The notes under the pieces were generated by a model. It ran no database searches, was not told where the DNA came from, and saw only the letters and a program-made list of their open reading frames with translations. DNA of 64,000 nt from Sinorhizobium chiapasense (lineage in GTDB: Bacteria; Pseudomonadota; Alphaproteobacteria; Rhizobiales; Rhizobiaceae). The stretch covers positions 1,674,001 through 1,738,000 of the forward strand of contig NZ_CP133148.1 of NCBI RefSeq assembly GCF_036488675.1, written 5' to 3'. Of the stretch, positions 48,943 to 56,270 are shown in pieces (the stretch's first letter is position 1; the number at the start of each line of letters is the position of its first letter). The translations under genes and the position numbers were made by a program.

Positions 48943-49458
48943 GGGCCAGTTTCCTGTCGAAAGGTGTCACGTTCGCCGGCGTTGTCGCATCGCGAGTGCA
49001 TGCGTTGATTATCAACCGCCGCCCGCTGCCATCGGCTTAAAGCGCGATGCAGTCGACGCAGGAATCTGAGGAAATGGTTAACGCATGTTAAACGGGCTGA
49101 TTTCCTTGGCTTTTCCCGCCGGAAGGCCGTCATTCTGTTAAGAAATCATTAGGATTTTAATGAATGCGGATTGCGCTTAATTGTAAGAACCTGGCTAATG
49201 TGTCACTACGATACGGTTAGGAACGTGTTTGCGTACGAAAGTGGCAACTGTTCCGGTGGATAAGCTCTGTGCTCGGTGCCGAGAGGCCTTAGTTCCGGCT
49301 ATCCATCGAGGCAATGGAATGGGTGATCAGGCAGGGTATGGCGCAGATGTGGTGCGTAGTGCCCTGGCGTCACCGCCCTGTTTCGGATGTCTTCGGGATT
49401 GCCTGTGCGGCGCCGCGGAGATGGCCATCGGCGGGCAATAGTAGTGAGGCGTATCCCT
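48943..49458 (+). other. Upstream region of the giant rgsE/gpr gene with CtrA-like sites
   Basis: AT-rich DNA after a short GC-rich stretch. It holds two CtrA-like sites: TTAA-N6-TTAA with an ATGGTTAA half (49074-49091) and TTAA-N7-TTAG (49138-49152). CtrA consensus is TTAA-N7-TTAA, so both are imperfect. A short open frame at 49229-49441 is not convincing. Confidence 0.45.
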
Positions 49459-52400
49459 ATGGCGACGAAAAAGAGCAGTGAGTCGATCGACGAAAAGGCG
49501 TTCCAGGCACTGGAAGCGGCCCTGAAAATCGACTTTGACGACCTTAAGTCGGCTCTGGATGACAAGACTTCCTTGGATGAACCGGAGGAAACCGTGTCTG
49601 AGCCCAGCAAGCAGGCGGCGGCATCTGATCAGGCGCAGGCTCCAAAGGCGCAGCCGGAAGCGCCGAAGACGGTGCGCAGCCTCGCGCCCGAGCCCGCTCC
49701 GAAGCAACCGCCGCTTTCGCCGGCAAATGACGATACACGGCGATCGCCGGCCGCGATGCTGCGCTCCCTCGAAGTCCGCACCAGCCGCGCGGCAATCCGT
49801 ACCGCTGCGCTGGTGTCGCTGCTTTGGGCCTTCGCTGGTCTCGCCGTCGCCCATCTTCTCTACGCACCGCAGATCTGGCAGATCCGCTCGCTCGCCGATC
49901 TCGCCGCCACGCCGGGTGCAATCGGTGTTCTTATCGGCATCGCCCTGCCCGTGATGCTGTTTTTCTCCTTTGCCACCATGCTTGCGAGAGCGCAGGATCT
50001 GCGTAATGCGGCGCGCTCGATGGCGGAGGTCGCCCTCCGTCTTGCCGAGCCGGAAACAACCGCCGCGGACCGCGTAATGACCGTTGGCCAGGCCGTCCGT
50101 CGCGAAGTGTCGGCGATGAACGAAGGCATCGAGCGTACCATCGCACGTGCGACGGAGCTCGAAACGCTGGTTCACTCCGAGGTCAATGCGCTTGAACGCA
50201 GCTACAGCGAAAACGAACTTCGCGTTCGCACCCTCGTGCAGGAACTGGGACTGGAGCGGGAAGCGATCATCGGGCACGCCGACCGTATCCGCACCTCGAT
50301 CGCCGGTGCGCACACCAAGCTGAAAGACGATCTGGAACTGGCGAGCGAGGATATAGCTTCGCGCATCGCTGTGTCCGGCGAAGCCTTTGCCTCTTTGATC
50401 GATACGCGCTCGGCCGCACTCACGGAAAGGTCGGAAAACGCGCTGCAGACCATCAGCACGATGCTGTCGACCCGCACCGATGCGCTCCTTTCCGGACTGA
50501 CGACGGCGGGGGTTGCGCTCAGCAATGAGTTCGATGCGCGGCTCGATGCCCTCAGCGAAACCCTGGAAAAACGCGGCGAGCAATTGCTCGGCCAGTTCGA
50601 GACCCGCGCTTCGAGCCTGGATGCCAACACCGAGAAGCTGAACGCCGCCCTCAACGAGCGTGCACGCCAGCTCAATGAAACGCTGATCGCACGGACCCGC
50701 GACCTCAACGAGAGCCTGAGTGTCGGCCAACAGGCAATCGCTGGCGGGCTCGACGACATGCTTGCCACGCTCAACGCCGCCCTCGACGAAAAGGGCGCAA
50801 GCTTCAGGCAGAGCCTGAAGTCGAGCGCCGACGATGCAATCATGGATCTCGATCTTCGCGGCGGTTTCTTCGAAGAGAAGCTGCAGACAACGGTCGGCCA
50901 GTTGGCGACGGCCTTCGACGAACGCTTCCACGAGTTCGCAAGTGCTTTCGACAAGCGCGCGAGCCTGCTCGACACCAAGCTGATGGAAAGCCTTCACCGC
51001 ATCAACGAGACCGTTTCCGGTGGCTCTGAGGCGATCGGCAGCGCTCTCGATAGCGGCGTCGAGAAGATCGGTTCGGCCCTCTCCGACCAGTCGCTGACGC
51101 TTGCCACGGCACTCGGCGCGACACAGGATTTCATCGAGGAAAGCATCGGCGGCCGTACGTCAGAGCTCAGCAATCTCATCGGCAGTGCGCAGAACCGGAT
51201 CGAGAGCGTGCTTTCCGACAAGACCGGATCGCTGATGGGGGCGCTCACCGAGGCACAGGAACGGATCGAGAGTGGCTTCGGCCGGCGTGCCGATGCGCTT
51301 GCCGATGCGCTCACGACCAGCGAGCAGCGCCTGACCGAAGGGCTCGATTCGCGCACGGCTGCCTTCATCGACGGCTTGCAATCCGCGCATGCGCGGATCG
51401 AACAGACCCTCACGGGCACGACCGACGAAATCACCAGCGCAATCGCGGCAAGCCAACATCGCCTGGACAACACGCTTTCGGAGCGCACTGCCGCCATCTC
51501 GACCGCCCTCACCTCCGGCGCGAGCCTCGTCGAGGGTGCTGTCGCCGGTACCGCTGATCGGCTGGAGCGCGTCCTGTCCGAGCGCGGAGAGGCGATCTCC
51601 GAAGCGCTTGGCAGCCAAACCAAAACGCTCGAAGGCGTGCTGTCGCAACGTGGGGACGCGATCACCGACGCGCTCACCAACCAGACGACGGCGCTCGATG
51701 GGATCCTTTCGGAGCGCGCGACGCAGATCAACTCGACGATGTCGGCCCGCGCCAATGAAATGGCGGACACGCTCAGCCGCCACGCCGAGGACGTTGCCGA
51801 CAACCTGACGTTCCGCGCAATGGCCGTTGCCGAGACGATGACGGACCGGGTGGGCGAGATCGAGAACAAGCTTTCACAAAGCGTATCCGAGGTAGCCGAG
51901 AACCTCGGCAGCCGCGTCAGCCAGATCGCCGGCACGCTCACCGAAACAAGTGCCCGTATCGCCGAAGATCTGAGCGGCCGCGTCGGCAAGATTTCGGACG
52001 CCTTGACCGGCACCAGCGCCGAGATCGCGGAAGCGCTCACTGCCCGCACGTCCGAGGCGACCGCCTCGCTCGCCGGCAAGGCTGCGGAAATCGAGCAGGC
52101 GCTTTCCGGCAAGACCGAGCATCTGCGCGACACCCTCACGACAACGCATGATCAGATACGGGCGACGCTCGACGATCGGATCCACGCGATCAATCTGGCG
52201 GTCGGCCAGGGCCGCGAGCAGCTTGATGATCTGCTGTCCGATCAGTCCTTGGCGATTGCAACGACGCTCGCAACCAGCGCCAGCATGTTGGAAATGTCGC
52301 TCGAGGAGCGACAGACGTCGATTGCCGGCGTCATCGACCGCAGCGCCGAAGCGCTTGACGCGCGCATGCGTTCCACCACGGGCAATATCGCAGAGCGGCT

Positions 52401-55400
52401 TGCCGAGACGGCCGACCAGATCAGCCTTGCGGCCGACACGCTCACCAATCGCGTAGACATTTCGATCAACGGCATCAATAACCGTCTCGACGACACCGGC
52501 GCCCGCATCGAGGCGAGCCTCGGCTCGCTCGAAGATCGCGTTCAGGGCAGCGTTGGTAGCGTCAACGCATTCGTCGATGAAACCGGCGCGCGTATCGAAA
52601 CGAGCCTCGGTTCGCTTGAGGAGCGTATTCGCGGCACCGTCGGTACCGTCGGCGGCATCGTCGACGATACGGGTATCCGCATCGAGAACCGCCTCGGCGC
52701 CGTGGAAGAGCGCATCCGCGGCAGCGTCGGCAATGTCAACGCGATCGTTGACGACACCGGCGCGCGCATCGAGACGAGTCTCGGCTCGCTCGAAGAGCGA
52801 ATTCGCGACAGTGTCGGCAGTGTCAACGCCATCGTCGACAGTGCCGGACAACGGATCGCCGATAGCCTTGGCGAGCGCGCCGGGGAGATTGATCGGGTCA
52901 GCGAGATGGCGGCAGCCCGCATCTCGACGGCAATCGAAACCGGTACGGGCCGTATCGAAGAGCGGCTCGGTACGATGGACCGTGCACTCAACATCGGTCT
53001 CGAAAACGTCAACCGGACGATCGAAGGCAAGGCAGCCGCCCTCGTCACGAGCCTGCGCGGCGCGGTAAGCAGCGCGGCGCAGGAGCTCGACGCAGAAGCT
53101 GCCCGTTCGGCCGATCTGTTGTCCAAGGCTGGCGTGGATTTCGCCGACGCGCTTGCCGCCCGCAACGCCGAATTCGCGAACTCGATCGAGCAGACCGCAT
53201 CGACGACTGCCGCCCGCCATGCCGACCTCGTCCGCTCGGTTACGGACGCCGCGGATACGGCAACGGCCCGGCTTGCCTCCACCCATAACCAGGTTGCAAG
53301 CCACGCTCTGGGCATCCAGCAGAGCCTCTCGGATGCGGAAAAGGCTCTTGATGCCCGGGGCCAGGCCATCCGCAGCACGCTTGACGAACGCACCCGCGAA
53401 CTCAATTCGATGCTTGCCGGCCGTTCGCTCGAGTTGTCCCGCCTTCTCGACGAGCAGGCACGGCCCGTGATCGAGCAGTATGCGGCTACCGGCAAGGAGG
53501 CCGCCGAACGGATCGCCGCCCTCACCCAGGAAAGCGCGGATCGCCTGCGGGCCGAAAACGCGGCGCTCATCAATGCCATTACCGAGCGGACCGACGAAAC
53601 GCTCAACGCCATCACGCTGCGTGCGGAGGAGACGGCCAAGGCCATGAAAATGGTCGAGAACCGCCTTCAGTCGACGGCGATGGGCCTTATCGACCAGCTT
53701 GCCGCCAACAATTCGGCGATCTCGACCGTTATCGACCAGGCGAACGACAATCTCGGCGACATGGATCAGCGTCTCGAGGCAACGGCATCGAAGTTCTCGG
53801 AAACGACGCGGCAGGCGTCCGACATGCTGTCGAGTTCCACCCGCCTCATCGAAGGCCGGGTCGACAAGCTGTCCGACATCGCAGGCTCGACGCTTTCTCA
53901 GATCGGCGGGATCGTCGGGCGTTTTGAGGACCATTCGAAGGTTCTCGGCCAGGCGTCCGATTTGCTGGCAGCCGCCCAGTCGAACCTGGTCAGCACGCTC
54001 GAAGAGCGTCAGGGCGCATTGCGGACCCTTTCCGTCGGCCTGGTGCAGCGCTCGGAGGAAATCGAACGCACGATGCGGGCACTGGAAGGCTTCGTCGATG
54101 GTGCCTTCCAGCGGGCCGAAGAACGCTCCGGCCAGGTGGCCGGCAATCTTCGCAGCGGCATCCAGTCTTCCTTCACGGACGTCGGCCGGTTGCTGTCGAG
54201 CACCGAACAGCGTGCGAACGAGGCTGCCGAAGCTATGCGCAACGCGCTGGCGCAAGCCGGCGAGGAAGCCGGGGCGTCGGTCGAAGGCGTCTTCGCGCAG
54301 GCCGAGGAACGGACCCGCCAGATCGCCGATACGTTGCGCTCGGGCGTAGAGACCTCGTTCGCCGACGTCAACAAGACCCTGTCGCAGGTGGAGGGCCGCG
54401 CGCTCAGCGCCTCCGAAGCACTTCGCCGCGCGATCGCCAAGGCTGGCGAGGATGCCGGTCAATCGATCGAAGGCGCCTTCGCGAATGCCGAGGAGCGTTC
54501 GAAGGAAGTTGCGTCCCGCCTGCGCGGCAGTGTCGGGGCCTCGGTGTCCGACATCGAGCGCATGCTGGCCGAAAGCGGCAAGAAGTCTGACGGCGTCGCC
54601 GCCCAACTGCGCGAGGCCGTCCGTCAGGCAATCGATGAGGCGATCAACCGCTTCAGCGGTGCGACCGACGATATCCGCCGCTCCGCCAACGAGATCCGCA
54701 AGGAACTCGACATGACCCGCGAAGAGTTGAAGCGTGGCGCTTTCGATCTGCCCGAAGAGGCAAAGGAGAACGCATCGATGATGCGGCGCGCCGTCTCCGA
54801 ACAAATCAAAGCGCTGCAGGAGCTTTCCGAAATCATCGGCAAGTCCTCCACGCAGCTCGAGGTCGCGCAGCCGGTTCGCCAGCAGGCCGTTTCGAATTCA
54901 CGGGCCCCTGCTGCCCCTCGCCCCGCCGTCCAGCAACCGGTCGCGGAGGAGCGGCGTGAGCAGCCGGCCCCCGCTCCAGCGCCGGCTCCCGCGTTGCGTG
55001 GAAGCCTTGGCCTGGAGCAAGCCACGCGCCCGCAACCGCCTGGCCGCCAGGATGTCGCCGAGGACCGCGCGGAAGAAGGTGGCGGCTGGATGCGTGATCT
55101 GCTTCGCGCCGCCTCGCGTGAAGAAGCTCCCGCCACCGCGCGCCAGCGGCCGGCGGAAAGCCAGCCTTCGGTGCGCCCCGGCGACAGCCGCAATCCACGC
55201 CATGTGGTCGAATCGTTGAATTCGCTCTCGGTCGACATCGCCCGGGCGATCGACCACGACGCATCGGTGGATCTCTGGCGGCGTTATCAACGTGGTGAAC
55301 GCGATGTGTTCACGCGCCGGCTCTACACGCTCAAGGGCCAGCAGACGTTCGACGAGATCAAGCGCAAGTATGATCGCGAGCCGGAATTCCGGACGGCGGT

Positions 55401-55545
55401 GGACCGTTACATCGCCGATTTCGAAAAGCTCCTCGCCGATGTCGCGCGGAACGATCCCGACAAGCGCATTACGCAGACCTATCTGACGTCCGATACGGGC
55501 AAGGTCTATACGATGCTCGCCCACGCGGCCGGTCGCTTCAACTGA
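49459..55545 (+). CDS. rgsE: Growth-pole-ring protein GPR/RgsE (giant apolipoprotein-like repeat protein)
   Basis: The 2028-residue protein has an N-terminal acidic/proline-rich region (residues 1-110), two membrane segments (about 115-135 and 153-175) as a hairpin, then a very long helical repeat region and a C-terminal domain. The Agrobacterium relative (GPR) forms a ring at the growing pole and is needed for unipolar growth; the Sinorhizobium name is RgsE. Residues 559-899 are fifteen 22-residue units plus one 11-residue unit, as in apolipoprotein A helices; residues 1013-1128 are four 29-residue units. The start follows GAGG. Confidence 0.88.
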   Translation: MATKKSSESIDEKAFQALEAALKIDFDDLKSALDDKTSLDEPEETVSEPSKQAAASDQAQAPKAQPEAPKTVRSLAPEPAPKQPPLSPANDDTRRSPAAMLRSLEVRTSRAAIRTAALVSLLWAFAGLAVAHLLYAPQIWQIRSLADLAATPGAIGVLIGIALPVMLFFSFATMLARAQDLRNAARSMAEVALRLAEPETTAADRVMTVGQAVRREVSAMNEGIERTIARATELETLVHSEVNALERSYSENELRVRTLVQELGLEREAIIGHADRIRTSIAGAHTKLKDDLELASEDIASRIAVSGEAFASLIDTRSAALTERSENALQTISTMLSTRTDALLSGLTTAGVALSNEFDARLDALSETLEKRGEQLLGQFETRASSLDANTEKLNAALNERARQLNETLIARTRDLNESLSVGQQAIAGGLDDMLATLNAALDEKGASFRQSLKSSADDAIMDLDLRGGFFEEKLQTTVGQLATAFDERFHEFASAFDKRASLLDTKLMESLHRINETVSGGSEAIGSALDSGVEKIGSALSDQSLTLATALGATQDFIEESIGGRTSELSNLIGSAQNRIESVLSDKTGSLMGALTEAQERIESGFGRRADALADALTTSEQRLTEGLDSRTAAFIDGLQSAHARIEQTLTGTTDEITSAIAASQHRLDNTLSERTAAISTALTSGASLVEGAVAGTADRLERVLSERGEAISEALGSQTKTLEGVLSQRGDAITDALTNQTTALDGILSERATQINSTMSARANEMADTLSRHAEDVADNLTFRAMAVAETMTDRVGEIENKLSQSVSEVAENLGSRVSQIAGTLTETSARIAEDLSGRVGKISDALTGTSAEIAEALTARTSEATASLAGKAAEIEQALSGKTEHLRDTLTTTHDQIRATLDDRIHAINLAVGQGREQLDDLLSDQSLAIATTLATSASMLEMSLEERQTSIAGVIDRSAEALDARMRSTTGNIAERLAETADQISLAADTLTNRVDISINGINNRLDDTGARIEASLGSLEDRVQGSVGSVNAFVDETGARIETSLGSLEERIRGTVGTVGGIVDDTGIRIENRLGAVEERIRGSVGNVNAIVDDTGARIETSLGSLEERIRDSVGSVNAIVDSAGQRIADSLGERAGEIDRVSEMAAARISTAIETGTGRIEERLGTMDRALNIGLENVNRTIEGKAAALVTSLRGAVSSAAQELDAEAARSADLLSKAGVDFADALAARNAEFANSIEQTASTTAARHADLVRSVTDAADTATARLASTHNQVASHALGIQQSLSDAEKALDARGQAIRSTLDERTRELNSMLAGRSLELSRLLDEQARPVIEQYAATGKEAAERIAALTQESADRLRAENAALINAITERTDETLNAITLRAEETAKAMKMVENRLQSTAMGLIDQLAANNSAISTVIDQANDNLGDMDQRLEATASKFSETTRQASDMLSSSTRLIEGRVDKLSDIAGSTLSQIGGIVGRFEDHSKVLGQASDLLAAAQSNLVSTLEERQGALRTLSVGLVQRSEEIERTMRALEGFVDGAFQRAEERSGQVAGNLRSGIQSSFTDVGRLLSSTEQRANEAAEAMRNALAQAGEEAGASVEGVFAQAEERTRQIADTLRSGVETSFADVNKTLSQVEGRALSASEALRRAIAKAGEDAGQSIEGAFANAEERSKEVASRLRGSVGASVSDIERMLAESGKKSDGVAAQLREAVRQAIDEAINRFSGATDDIRRSANEIRKELDMTREELKRGAFDLPEEAKENASMMRRAVSEQIKALQELSEIIGKSSTQLEVAQPVRQQAVSNSRAPAAPRPAVQQPVAEERREQPAPAPAPAPALRGSLGLEQATRPQPPGRQDVAEDRAEEGGGWMRDLLRAASREEAPATARQRPAESQPSVRPGDSRNPRHVVESLNSLSVDIARAIDHDASVDLWRRYQRGERDVFTRRLYTLKGQQTFDEIKRKYDREPEFRTAVDRYIADFEKLLADVARNDPDKRITQTYLTSDTGKVYTMLAHAAGRFN
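51133..52155 (+). repeat. Degenerate 66-bp (22-residue) repeat array in rgsE
   Basis: Fifteen protein units of 22 residues, with one 11-residue half unit after the sixth (residues 691-701). Each unit starts with Ile, Leu, Val or Met and carries the pattern of a hydrophobic residue, x, x, x, Leu/Val, two residues, Arg/Lys. The frame never slips, so the repeat is selected at the protein level. Confidence 0.85.
52495..52842 (+). repeat. Four 87-bp tandem repeats in rgsE
   Basis: Four copies of 29 residues each, with openings TGARIEA, TGARIET, TGIRIEN and TGARIET, and a shared core SLGSLEERI (or close). The copies are much more alike than the 22-residue units, so they look younger. Confidence 0.9.
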
Positions 55546-55600: not shown

Positions 55601-55678
55601 TATCCGCCGTATCGCAAGCGGCCATACTGGTCCTCGCAGGCGAGCGATGTGGCGTCGCCAGTGTCGACCCGGTTGCCT

Positions 55679-55793
55679 ACAGCGCCGCGCGTCTTATCAG
55701 ACGCGCAAAGGAGGTCGTAGCGCTTTGAATTGCTGCATGTCTTTGTCCTTAAATCGGCTCCGATTCGGGGACAAAGTCATGCGGCAATTCGAA
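55679..55793 (+). repeat. RIME-like intergenic element
   Basis: Palindrome one (cagcgccgcgcgtcttatcag) matches the copies at 27680 and 44819; palindrome two is altered (ctttgtcctt ... cggggacaaag), but its arms still pair, a compensatory change. A long frame that reads through it from the left is not coding. Confidence 0.8.
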
Positions 55794-55847
55794 TGCTGCA
55801 ATGAGCTTCGCGCGTTGGATGCACGCGCGGCGCTCAAGGAGGCGGAA

Positions 55848-56270
55848 ATGAAACCGCGGATTAAAGTCCTTACCCTTGGCGTGAGCGATCTCGAAAAATC
55901 TCTCGCCTTTTATCGCGACGGAATGGGGCTGCCGACGGAGGGGATTGTCGGCCAGCAATTCGAAGATGGTGCGGTGGTCTTTTTCCATATGGGCGAGGAC
56001 CTGATCCTGGCGCTATTCCCGACGACTTCACTTGCCAAGGATGCGAAGATCGCCGCTACGCCAGTGCGGCTCGGTGCGGTGTCGATCGGGCACATCGTCA
56101 AATCGAAAGAAGAGGTCGATGCCGTCATGAAGCAGGCCGAGAAAGCCGGCGCAACCATCACCGATCCGGCGCATGAACGCTTCTGGGGCGGGTATTCGGG
56201 CTATTTCCACGACCCGGACGGCCATCTCTGGGAGATCGTCTGGAACCCGCAATGGACGGTCCCGGACTGA
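55848..56270 (+). CDS. VOC (glyoxalase/dioxygenase-fold) family protein
   Basis: The 140-residue protein has one vicinal-oxygen-chelate fold, with RIKVLTLGVSDLEKSLAFYR at the start and YFHDPDGHLWEIVWNPQW at the end. The metal ligands include the late Glu in LWEIV. Substrate unknown. The ATG follows a very strong AAGGAGGCG site, which shows that the long frame upstream, which reads through a repeat, is not part of the gene. Confidence 0.88.
   Translation: MKPRIKVLTLGVSDLEKSLAFYRDGMGLPTEGIVGQQFEDGAVVFFHMGEDLILALFPTTSLAKDAKIAATPVRLGAVSIGHIVKSKEEVDAVMKQAEKAGATITDPAHERFWGGYSGYFHDPDGHLWEIVWNPQWTVPD

Follow-up and report, generated by a model that had tools for sequence, protein, structure and literature searches.

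The 64,000-nucleotide stretch of the Sinorhizobium chiapasense genome analysed here (NZ_CP133148.1, positions 1,674,001 to 1,738,000 of the forward strand; hereafter the window) encodes the giant polar-ring protein RgsE/GPR, which, with a probability of roughly 0.6 for the model as a whole, is a membrane-anchored, continuous alpha-helical rod with interchangeable 11-residue (hendecad) spacers that scaffolds the ring of the growth pole. The observations that carry this reading are the frame of the repeats, a rule on the length of insertions and deletions (indels) between orthologs, the depletion of short indels in the rod and the unbroken helix predicted for one 570-residue segment of it; the oligomerisation of the rod and its scaffold mechanism are probable.

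According to the model, the rod, of about 1,570 residues and about 232 nm if fully extended, would be a continuous alpha-helix anchored in the membrane and made mostly of hendecads, with modules of 29, 62 and 106 residues equal to 11a+7. Most likely, a hydrophobic stripe on one side would line the core of a homo-oligomeric hendecad coiled coil with parallel chains, which would hold the C-terminal domain at a distance from the membrane and scaffold the growth-pole ring. The units would act as exchangeable spacers, whole units being gained or lost, so that the pitch of the rod is kept while its length changes; changes that break the pitch are almost never seen between close relatives.

Architecture and repeat frames

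The coding sequence spans 49459..55545 on the plus strand and gives 2028 amino acids counted from a conserved MATKK start, common to 27/27 same-genus orthologs; the residue numbers of a preliminary description of the window agree with this start, and the listed open reading frame begins at 49387, 24 residues upstream. The closest named matches of the protein are in Sinorhizobium and Ensifer. Its identification as RgsE/GPR holds, since it has two N-terminal transmembrane segments, a very long cytoplasmic helical region, a match to PF01442 above the gathering score (238.7 bits in 12 stretches; cut-off 90) and a C-terminal domain conserved across the order. GPR of Agrobacterium (Atu1348, 2,115 amino acids) and RgsE of Sinorhizobium meliloti (SMc00190, 2,089 amino acids) belong to the same family and have similar size, two transmembrane segments and PF01442. 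The likeness to apolipoproteins and their 11/22 rule, which the preliminary description had pointed out, is borne out by the PF01442 score and by matches to ApoA-IV in the PDB (E-value 7.7e-05), beyond which sequence search returned no solved structure. The parts of the gene are as follows.

49804..49974, plus strand: two N-terminal transmembrane segments (hydropathy, 19-residue windows from residues 116 and 154)
50116..54825, plus strand: helical rod, residues 220-1789, 1570 amino acids, with prolines only at 1336 and 1765
50638..52485, plus strand: unbroken 11-residue frame, residues 394-1009, 56 hendecads (position scan, shuffles)
51133..52155, plus strand: 22-residue array, residues 559-899 (hendecad parse, autocorrelation)
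52486..52833, plus strand: four 29-residue (22+7) units, residues 1010-1125 (Tandem Repeats Finder, autocorrelation)
54133..54504, plus strand: 62-residue repeat, two clear copies (residues 1559-1682), followed by a degenerate third (repeat comparison)
55126..55542, plus strand: conserved C-terminal domain, predicted all-helical (profile, structure prediction)

Residues 559-899 can be parsed as 31 hendecads, with a hydrophobic residue (I/L/V/M/F) at position 4 in 31/31 and at position 0 in 30/31; the score autocorrelation of this array peaks at lags 22, 44, 11, 33 and 55 (z-scores 16.2 to 10.7), the segment labelled 559-899 in that calculation being residues 535-875 in MATKK numbering (offset 24). 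The division into fifteen 22-residue units and one 11-residue half unit without slip, as first read, is a fair parse; the half unit near 691-701, placed by inspection, is compatible with in-phase 22-residue stretches on both sides. The 11-residue frame extends beyond these limits, running without slip from 394 to 1009, and one of the two positions fails in three hendecads only (460, 867 and 988). The longest strict run counts 36 hendecads, while the maximum over 2,000 shuffles is 5. Along the rod, ten tested segments have hydrophobic periods of 3.585-3.67.

The four 29-residue units are confirmed at 1010-1125 (period 87 nucleotides, 4.1 copies; lag 29, z-score 17.0), and a third type of repeat, of 62 residues and starting from residue 1559, was absent from the first account. 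Adjacent units are 72% identical in DNA for the 29-residue type and 41% for the 11-residue type; in adjacent 22-residue units, third codon positions agree at 0.32-0.39, little above the 0.33 expected from composition, with the stripe kept. In 14/28 genus members (L018, L021, L029 and eleven others), a block that includes the last part of the hendecad array occurs in duplicate after residue 957, the insert having 106 residues in five genomes, 95 in five, 109 in three and 201 (95+106) in one; L029 has the duplication twice. Units of 11, 22, 29, 62, 95 and 106 residues all equal 11a or 11a+7; the 109-residue variant does not fit.

An open reading frame of 976 residues on the minus strand (51874-54804) crosses the rod and is probably a by-product of codons rich in G and C.

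Length changes among orthologs

Orthologs were taken from 28 genus members (window included), from 76 of the 79 readable family and order loci (79/80 being readable, L044 not) and from the 77 readable of 80 named loci, three having been dropped for an open 5' end. The 181 proteins yielded 169 distinct rods; the remaining 12, given as one joint count, were either duplicates or scored under the anchor cut. Each rod was aligned with its two nearest neighbours, giving 249 pairs, 117 of them with at least 80% identity; these close pairs share sequences, and the count was repeated on 37 disjoint pairs. Gaps with letters on both sides were left uncounted; the disjoint pairs had none.

In the close pairs, 133/138 rod gaps have a length of 0 or 7 modulo 11, compared with 10/199 gaps in the C-terminal tails of these proteins. 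Multiples of 11 account for 96 rod gaps and lengths of 7 modulo 11 for 37 (31 of exactly 29), leaving five that are neither (4, 15, 69, 69 and 138); 162 of the tail gaps are 1-5 residues long. Gaps of 10 residues or fewer occur once in 194,450 residues of rod and 186 times in 28,551 residues of tail. The disjoint pairs give the same picture, with 35/36 rod gaps and 1/54 tail gaps obeying the rule, and short gaps numbering 0 in 61,370 residues of rod and 51 in 9,054 of tail. When lengths are compared free of alignment, the rod differs in 92 pairs, by a multiple of 11 in 59, by 29 in 17 and otherwise in 16; BLAST-like gap costs return nearly the same gap list. For gap lengths up to 60, pairs above 80% identity show clustering on multiples of 3.665 (R 0.96, n=110) and pairs of 50-80% identity on multiples of 3.635 (R 0.87, n=297). 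In pairs below 80%, gaps that break the rule appear, mainly other near-multiples of the helix turn (4, 15, 25, 36 and 40).

Repeat number does vary, as had been envisaged: genus members differ by whole 22-residue units in residues 394-957, where the only changes are -22, 0, +22, +44, +66, +88 and +132. Within the genus, residues 220-394 are constant in length in 28/28, changes in 957-1156 are sums of 29 and the inserted block, and those in 1156-1789 are 0 or +11. Over the wider set, intervals were counted where both anchors scored >0.35 (47 to 93 orthologs per interval; L101, L102 and L112 excluded for weak C-terminal scores). Between anchors 1296-1415, which lie outside the tandem arrays, the changes in 70 orthologs are limited to -11, 0, +11 and +22, so that 29/29 non-zero changes are multiples of 11; between anchors 449-917, 23/27 distinct non-zero changes are 0 or 7 modulo 11.

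Both selection on helix phase and recombination between units probably contribute to this pattern, and more weight is given here to selection, the two not being separable. The scarcity of short indels where large ones are tolerated, the 11-residue changes outside tandem arrays and the near-composition agreement of third codon positions in 22-residue units whose stripe is kept point to selection on helix phase, probably the main cause. The best surviving alternative, which is nevertheless rather unlikely, is that the unit-sized indels arise solely from recombination between old tandem repeats, length being neutral and helix phase free of selection. The frequent likeness of inserts to their neighbour in DNA (median identity 0.73 for 11-multiples and 0.84 for 29-multiples), the high identity of the 29-residue units and the wide length range (zones of 683-2847 amino acids) are in its favour; however, it accounts poorly for short indels that are nearly absent from the rod and common in the tail, for multiples of 11 also between anchors 1296-1415, and for adjacent 11-residue units just 41% identical in DNA. 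Moreover, 17/115 distinct inserts are <60% identical to both neighbours, and 14 of these are multiples of 11, the other three being rule-breakers.

Hendecad rod or lipid surface

AlphaFold2 (25 aligned sequences, monomer) models residues 2-569 of a 570-residue rod segment as one helix, with a mean predicted local distance difference test (pLDDT) of 71 and a predicted template-modelling score (pTM) of 0.20. On the helical wheel, the 22-residue array has its two-position stripe at 0 and 33 degrees; small residues predominate at 65 and 295, arginine stands at 327, and acidic residues occupy the opposite side. Of the coiled-coil core positions a, d and h, two are strong, and at the third, that of 65 degrees, the small residues A, T and S prevail. 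The hydrophobic period, 3.67 in 559-899 and with a median of 3.656 over 203 rows from the order (which include the window and some genomes twice; L215 gave no reading), lies near the 3.667 of hendecad coiled coils. In 6,142 pooled hendecads, whose two stripe positions are hydrophobic by selection, the proline frequency is 0.00 (two decimals) at every position; residues 559-899 have none.

The preliminary description had read the array as apolipoprotein-like amphipathic helices lying on the curved inner membrane, with the repeat count setting lipid contact or curvature, and a lipid role for GPR is also proposed in PMC8262873. Indeed, PF01442 matches the protein in 12 stretches and ApoA-IV is found by sequence; exchangeable apolipoproteins such as ApoA-IV share with RgsE/GPR the 11/22 period, the profile match and the same two-position stripe, which may explain the Pfam match, and the hydrophobic moment is similar (0.374 in the array, 0.416 in the ApoA-IV stretch). 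However, these apolipoproteins have proline punctuation and class A charges, and the array has neither: in the ApoA-IV stretch proline reaches 35% at one position and basic residues stand on both flanks, while in the net acidic array basic residues are concentrated at 262 and 327 degrees only, on one flank. A HeliQuest-type discriminant gives the array D -0.11, with 0% of windows above the lipid-binding threshold of 0.68, and the ApoA-IV stretch D 0.26, with 17% of windows; four other rod segments have 3-9%. A low discriminant does not prove that lipid binding is absent. The single unbroken predicted helix also speaks against a lipid-lying arrangement, which is unlikely. The preliminary description had named as evidence against itself the prediction of a rod with no lipid-facing surface: the predicted helix largely bears out the rod, but the stripe is the same as that of ApoA-IV and would allow lipid contact.

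The hendecad rod is favoured because the predicted helix is unbroken, proline punctuation and class A charges are absent and the lipid discriminant is low; the RgsE/GPR rod would probably be a homo-oligomeric coiled coil of phase-preserving spacers.

Several points weigh against this model. The helix was modelled as a monomer, at the pTM given above, and the stripe is thin, with two strong positions in eleven that the ApoA-IV stretch carries as well; published foci measure just 50 nm across, a poor match for straight rods of 230 nm except where these run around or across the ring. The likeness of inserts to neighbouring DNA indicates that some of the unit-sized indels can result from recombination. 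Over long distances the indel rule is looser, since anchor intervals sum several events: anchors 220-449 are unchanged in 59/61 orthologs and differ by -4 in 2/61, anchors 966-1296 hold values such as -21, 15 and 19, and between anchors 1485-1727 the commonest non-zero change is -153 (16/93 orthologs), which is 10 modulo 11, other changes being -124 (15), -62 (14) and -154 (6). This last interval surrounds the 62-residue repeat, and its differences between orthologs include -62, -124 and +124. Finally, in GPR a 20-residue deletion of 1100-1120 (domain A-IV-1) complements well and forms paired foci (PMC8262873); a 20-residue coiled-coil deletion of 413-433 is reported as the most severe in the interference assay, and deletion of the surrounding 263-residue domain still forms paired foci. 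In both cases, removing 20 residues shifts the phase by about half a turn (20/3.667 to 20/3.62, or 5.45 to 5.52 turns); the severity of the 413-433 deletion would make sense if helix phase matters, and the well-complementing 1100-1120 deletion fits less easily. The indel rule suggests that deletions of 11, 22, 29, 33 and 44 residues would be structurally neutral and those of 20 and 21 rod-breaking.

Wider family, rod length and known systems

The C-terminal domain profile matches 30/30 genomes of the genus, 119/121 of the family, 115/121 of the order and 55/142 of the class, two of the last 55 being the genome from which the window comes and a second one from the order. The window copy of the domain has no Pfam match up to an E-value of 0.1 and no clear solved relative in the PDB; PF28217 is given by one database for 13/26 listed relatives and was not returned by the Pfam scans run here. 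Outside the order, the domain recurs in transmembrane-anchored proteins, in open reading frames mostly of 700-1,400 amino acids; an N-terminal transmembrane segment is present in 14 of the first 15 such relatives, the fifteenth being cut off by its contig. These relatives mostly differ from RgsE/GPR in rod period: of 35 taken, 34 were tested (L241 being too short), and a 25-residue period is stronger than the 11-residue one in 28/34 (L197-L211, L232-L251; the six others are L211, L232, L233, L243, L244 and L247), with a median hydrophobic period of 3.574. All 203 rows of the order favour the 11-residue period. The medians of 3.574 and 3.656 flank the 3.63 residues per turn of an undistorted helix (PMC9858780), which places the two groups on opposite sides of straight. 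A tree built from 74 rows of the C-terminal domain sets the order on one side of a branch, with a support of just 13%, and requires 5 changes of the period label; the difference is one of lineage, not proof of cause. Improbable on present data is a scenario in which the rod, at the base of this unipolar-growing order, exchanged the pitch of a 25-residue repeat (about 3.57 per turn) for that of an 11-residue one (about 3.66 per turn), giving a near-straight strut extendable by single units, whose number would tune the geometry of the growth-pole ring between species.

Rod lengths, computed at 0.148 nm per residue, amount to about 232 nm in the window and to 178-332 nm for 5-95% of the orthologs. 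At the alpha-helical rise of 0.15 nm, 1,700 residues extend to about 255 nm. PMC8262873 gives an extension of 600 nm for 1,700 helical residues, implying about 0.35 nm per residue; with the shorter value, folding back would be less obligatory than argued there. A length ruler, in which the length of the whole rod would stay at a given value and thereby fix ring diameter or focus spacing, is very unlikely: it has a precedent in HMW2 (0.13-0.15 nm per residue, PMC8191905), an extended rod of the same order as the 200 nm ring, a weak negative correlation between the 22- and 29-residue arrays in 105 orthologs (Spearman -0.20, P 0.04, kinship not removed) and a standard deviation of the total of 211 compared with 232 if independent; but in 99 close pairs the arrays do not compensate, which disfavours a fixed total length: the root-mean-square total change is 66, where independence predicts 56, and a sign-flip test for a total variance as small as the one seen gives P 0.9988. 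The 5-95% range of lengths is also wide.

The link to apolipoproteins and the scaffold idea are already in print: PMC8262873 describes apolipoprotein similarity, a hexameric 200 nm ring and a scaffold hypothesis for GPR, and PMC7327166 describes RgsE, called repeat-containing, with up to ten apolipoprotein domains and coiled-coil similarity; in Sinorhizobium meliloti Rm2011 a mutant deleted for rgsE is able to grow (PMC7327166). The published GPR/RgsE texts speak of apolipoprotein-like domains and short coiled coils; the parts of them consulted did not show the continuous 11-residue frame, the 29- and 62-residue modules or the indel rule. In the main text of PMC8262873 the words repeat, heptad and amphipathic are absent, and hendecad occurs in neither PMC8262873 nor PMC7327166. 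Literature searched by title and start of abstract, with most subscription papers, the first GPR paper included, outside it, likewise did not yield the frame of the repeats, the rule on indels or the difference between 25- and 11-residue periods.

Among known systems, Scy and FilP of Streptomyces also have a long hendecad rod in a polar-growth protein (PMC9858780; also the title of Holmes 2013); they differ from RgsE/GPR in a DivIVA-like N-terminus and a Gram-positive host, and no common descent is claimed. HMW2 of Mycoplasma pneumoniae is a polar, long helical scaffold whose helix length translates to nanometres (PMC8191905); the ruler function is shown for HMW2, not for RgsE/GPR. TipN of Caulobacter has similarity to GPR according to PMC8546619 and is called analogous in PMC13170164, a likeness by description. 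Rhizobia and their relatives lack MreB (PMC8546619), and GPR/RgsE is a candidate scaffold for the building of their growth pole; the strut and ruler ideas lend themselves to direct tests by way of natural length variants and simple in-frame deletions.

Downstream of RgsE/GPR, the gene at 55647-56267, whose FosA-type matches lie far under their cut-offs, encodes a protein of the glyoxalase/dioxygenase superfamily.

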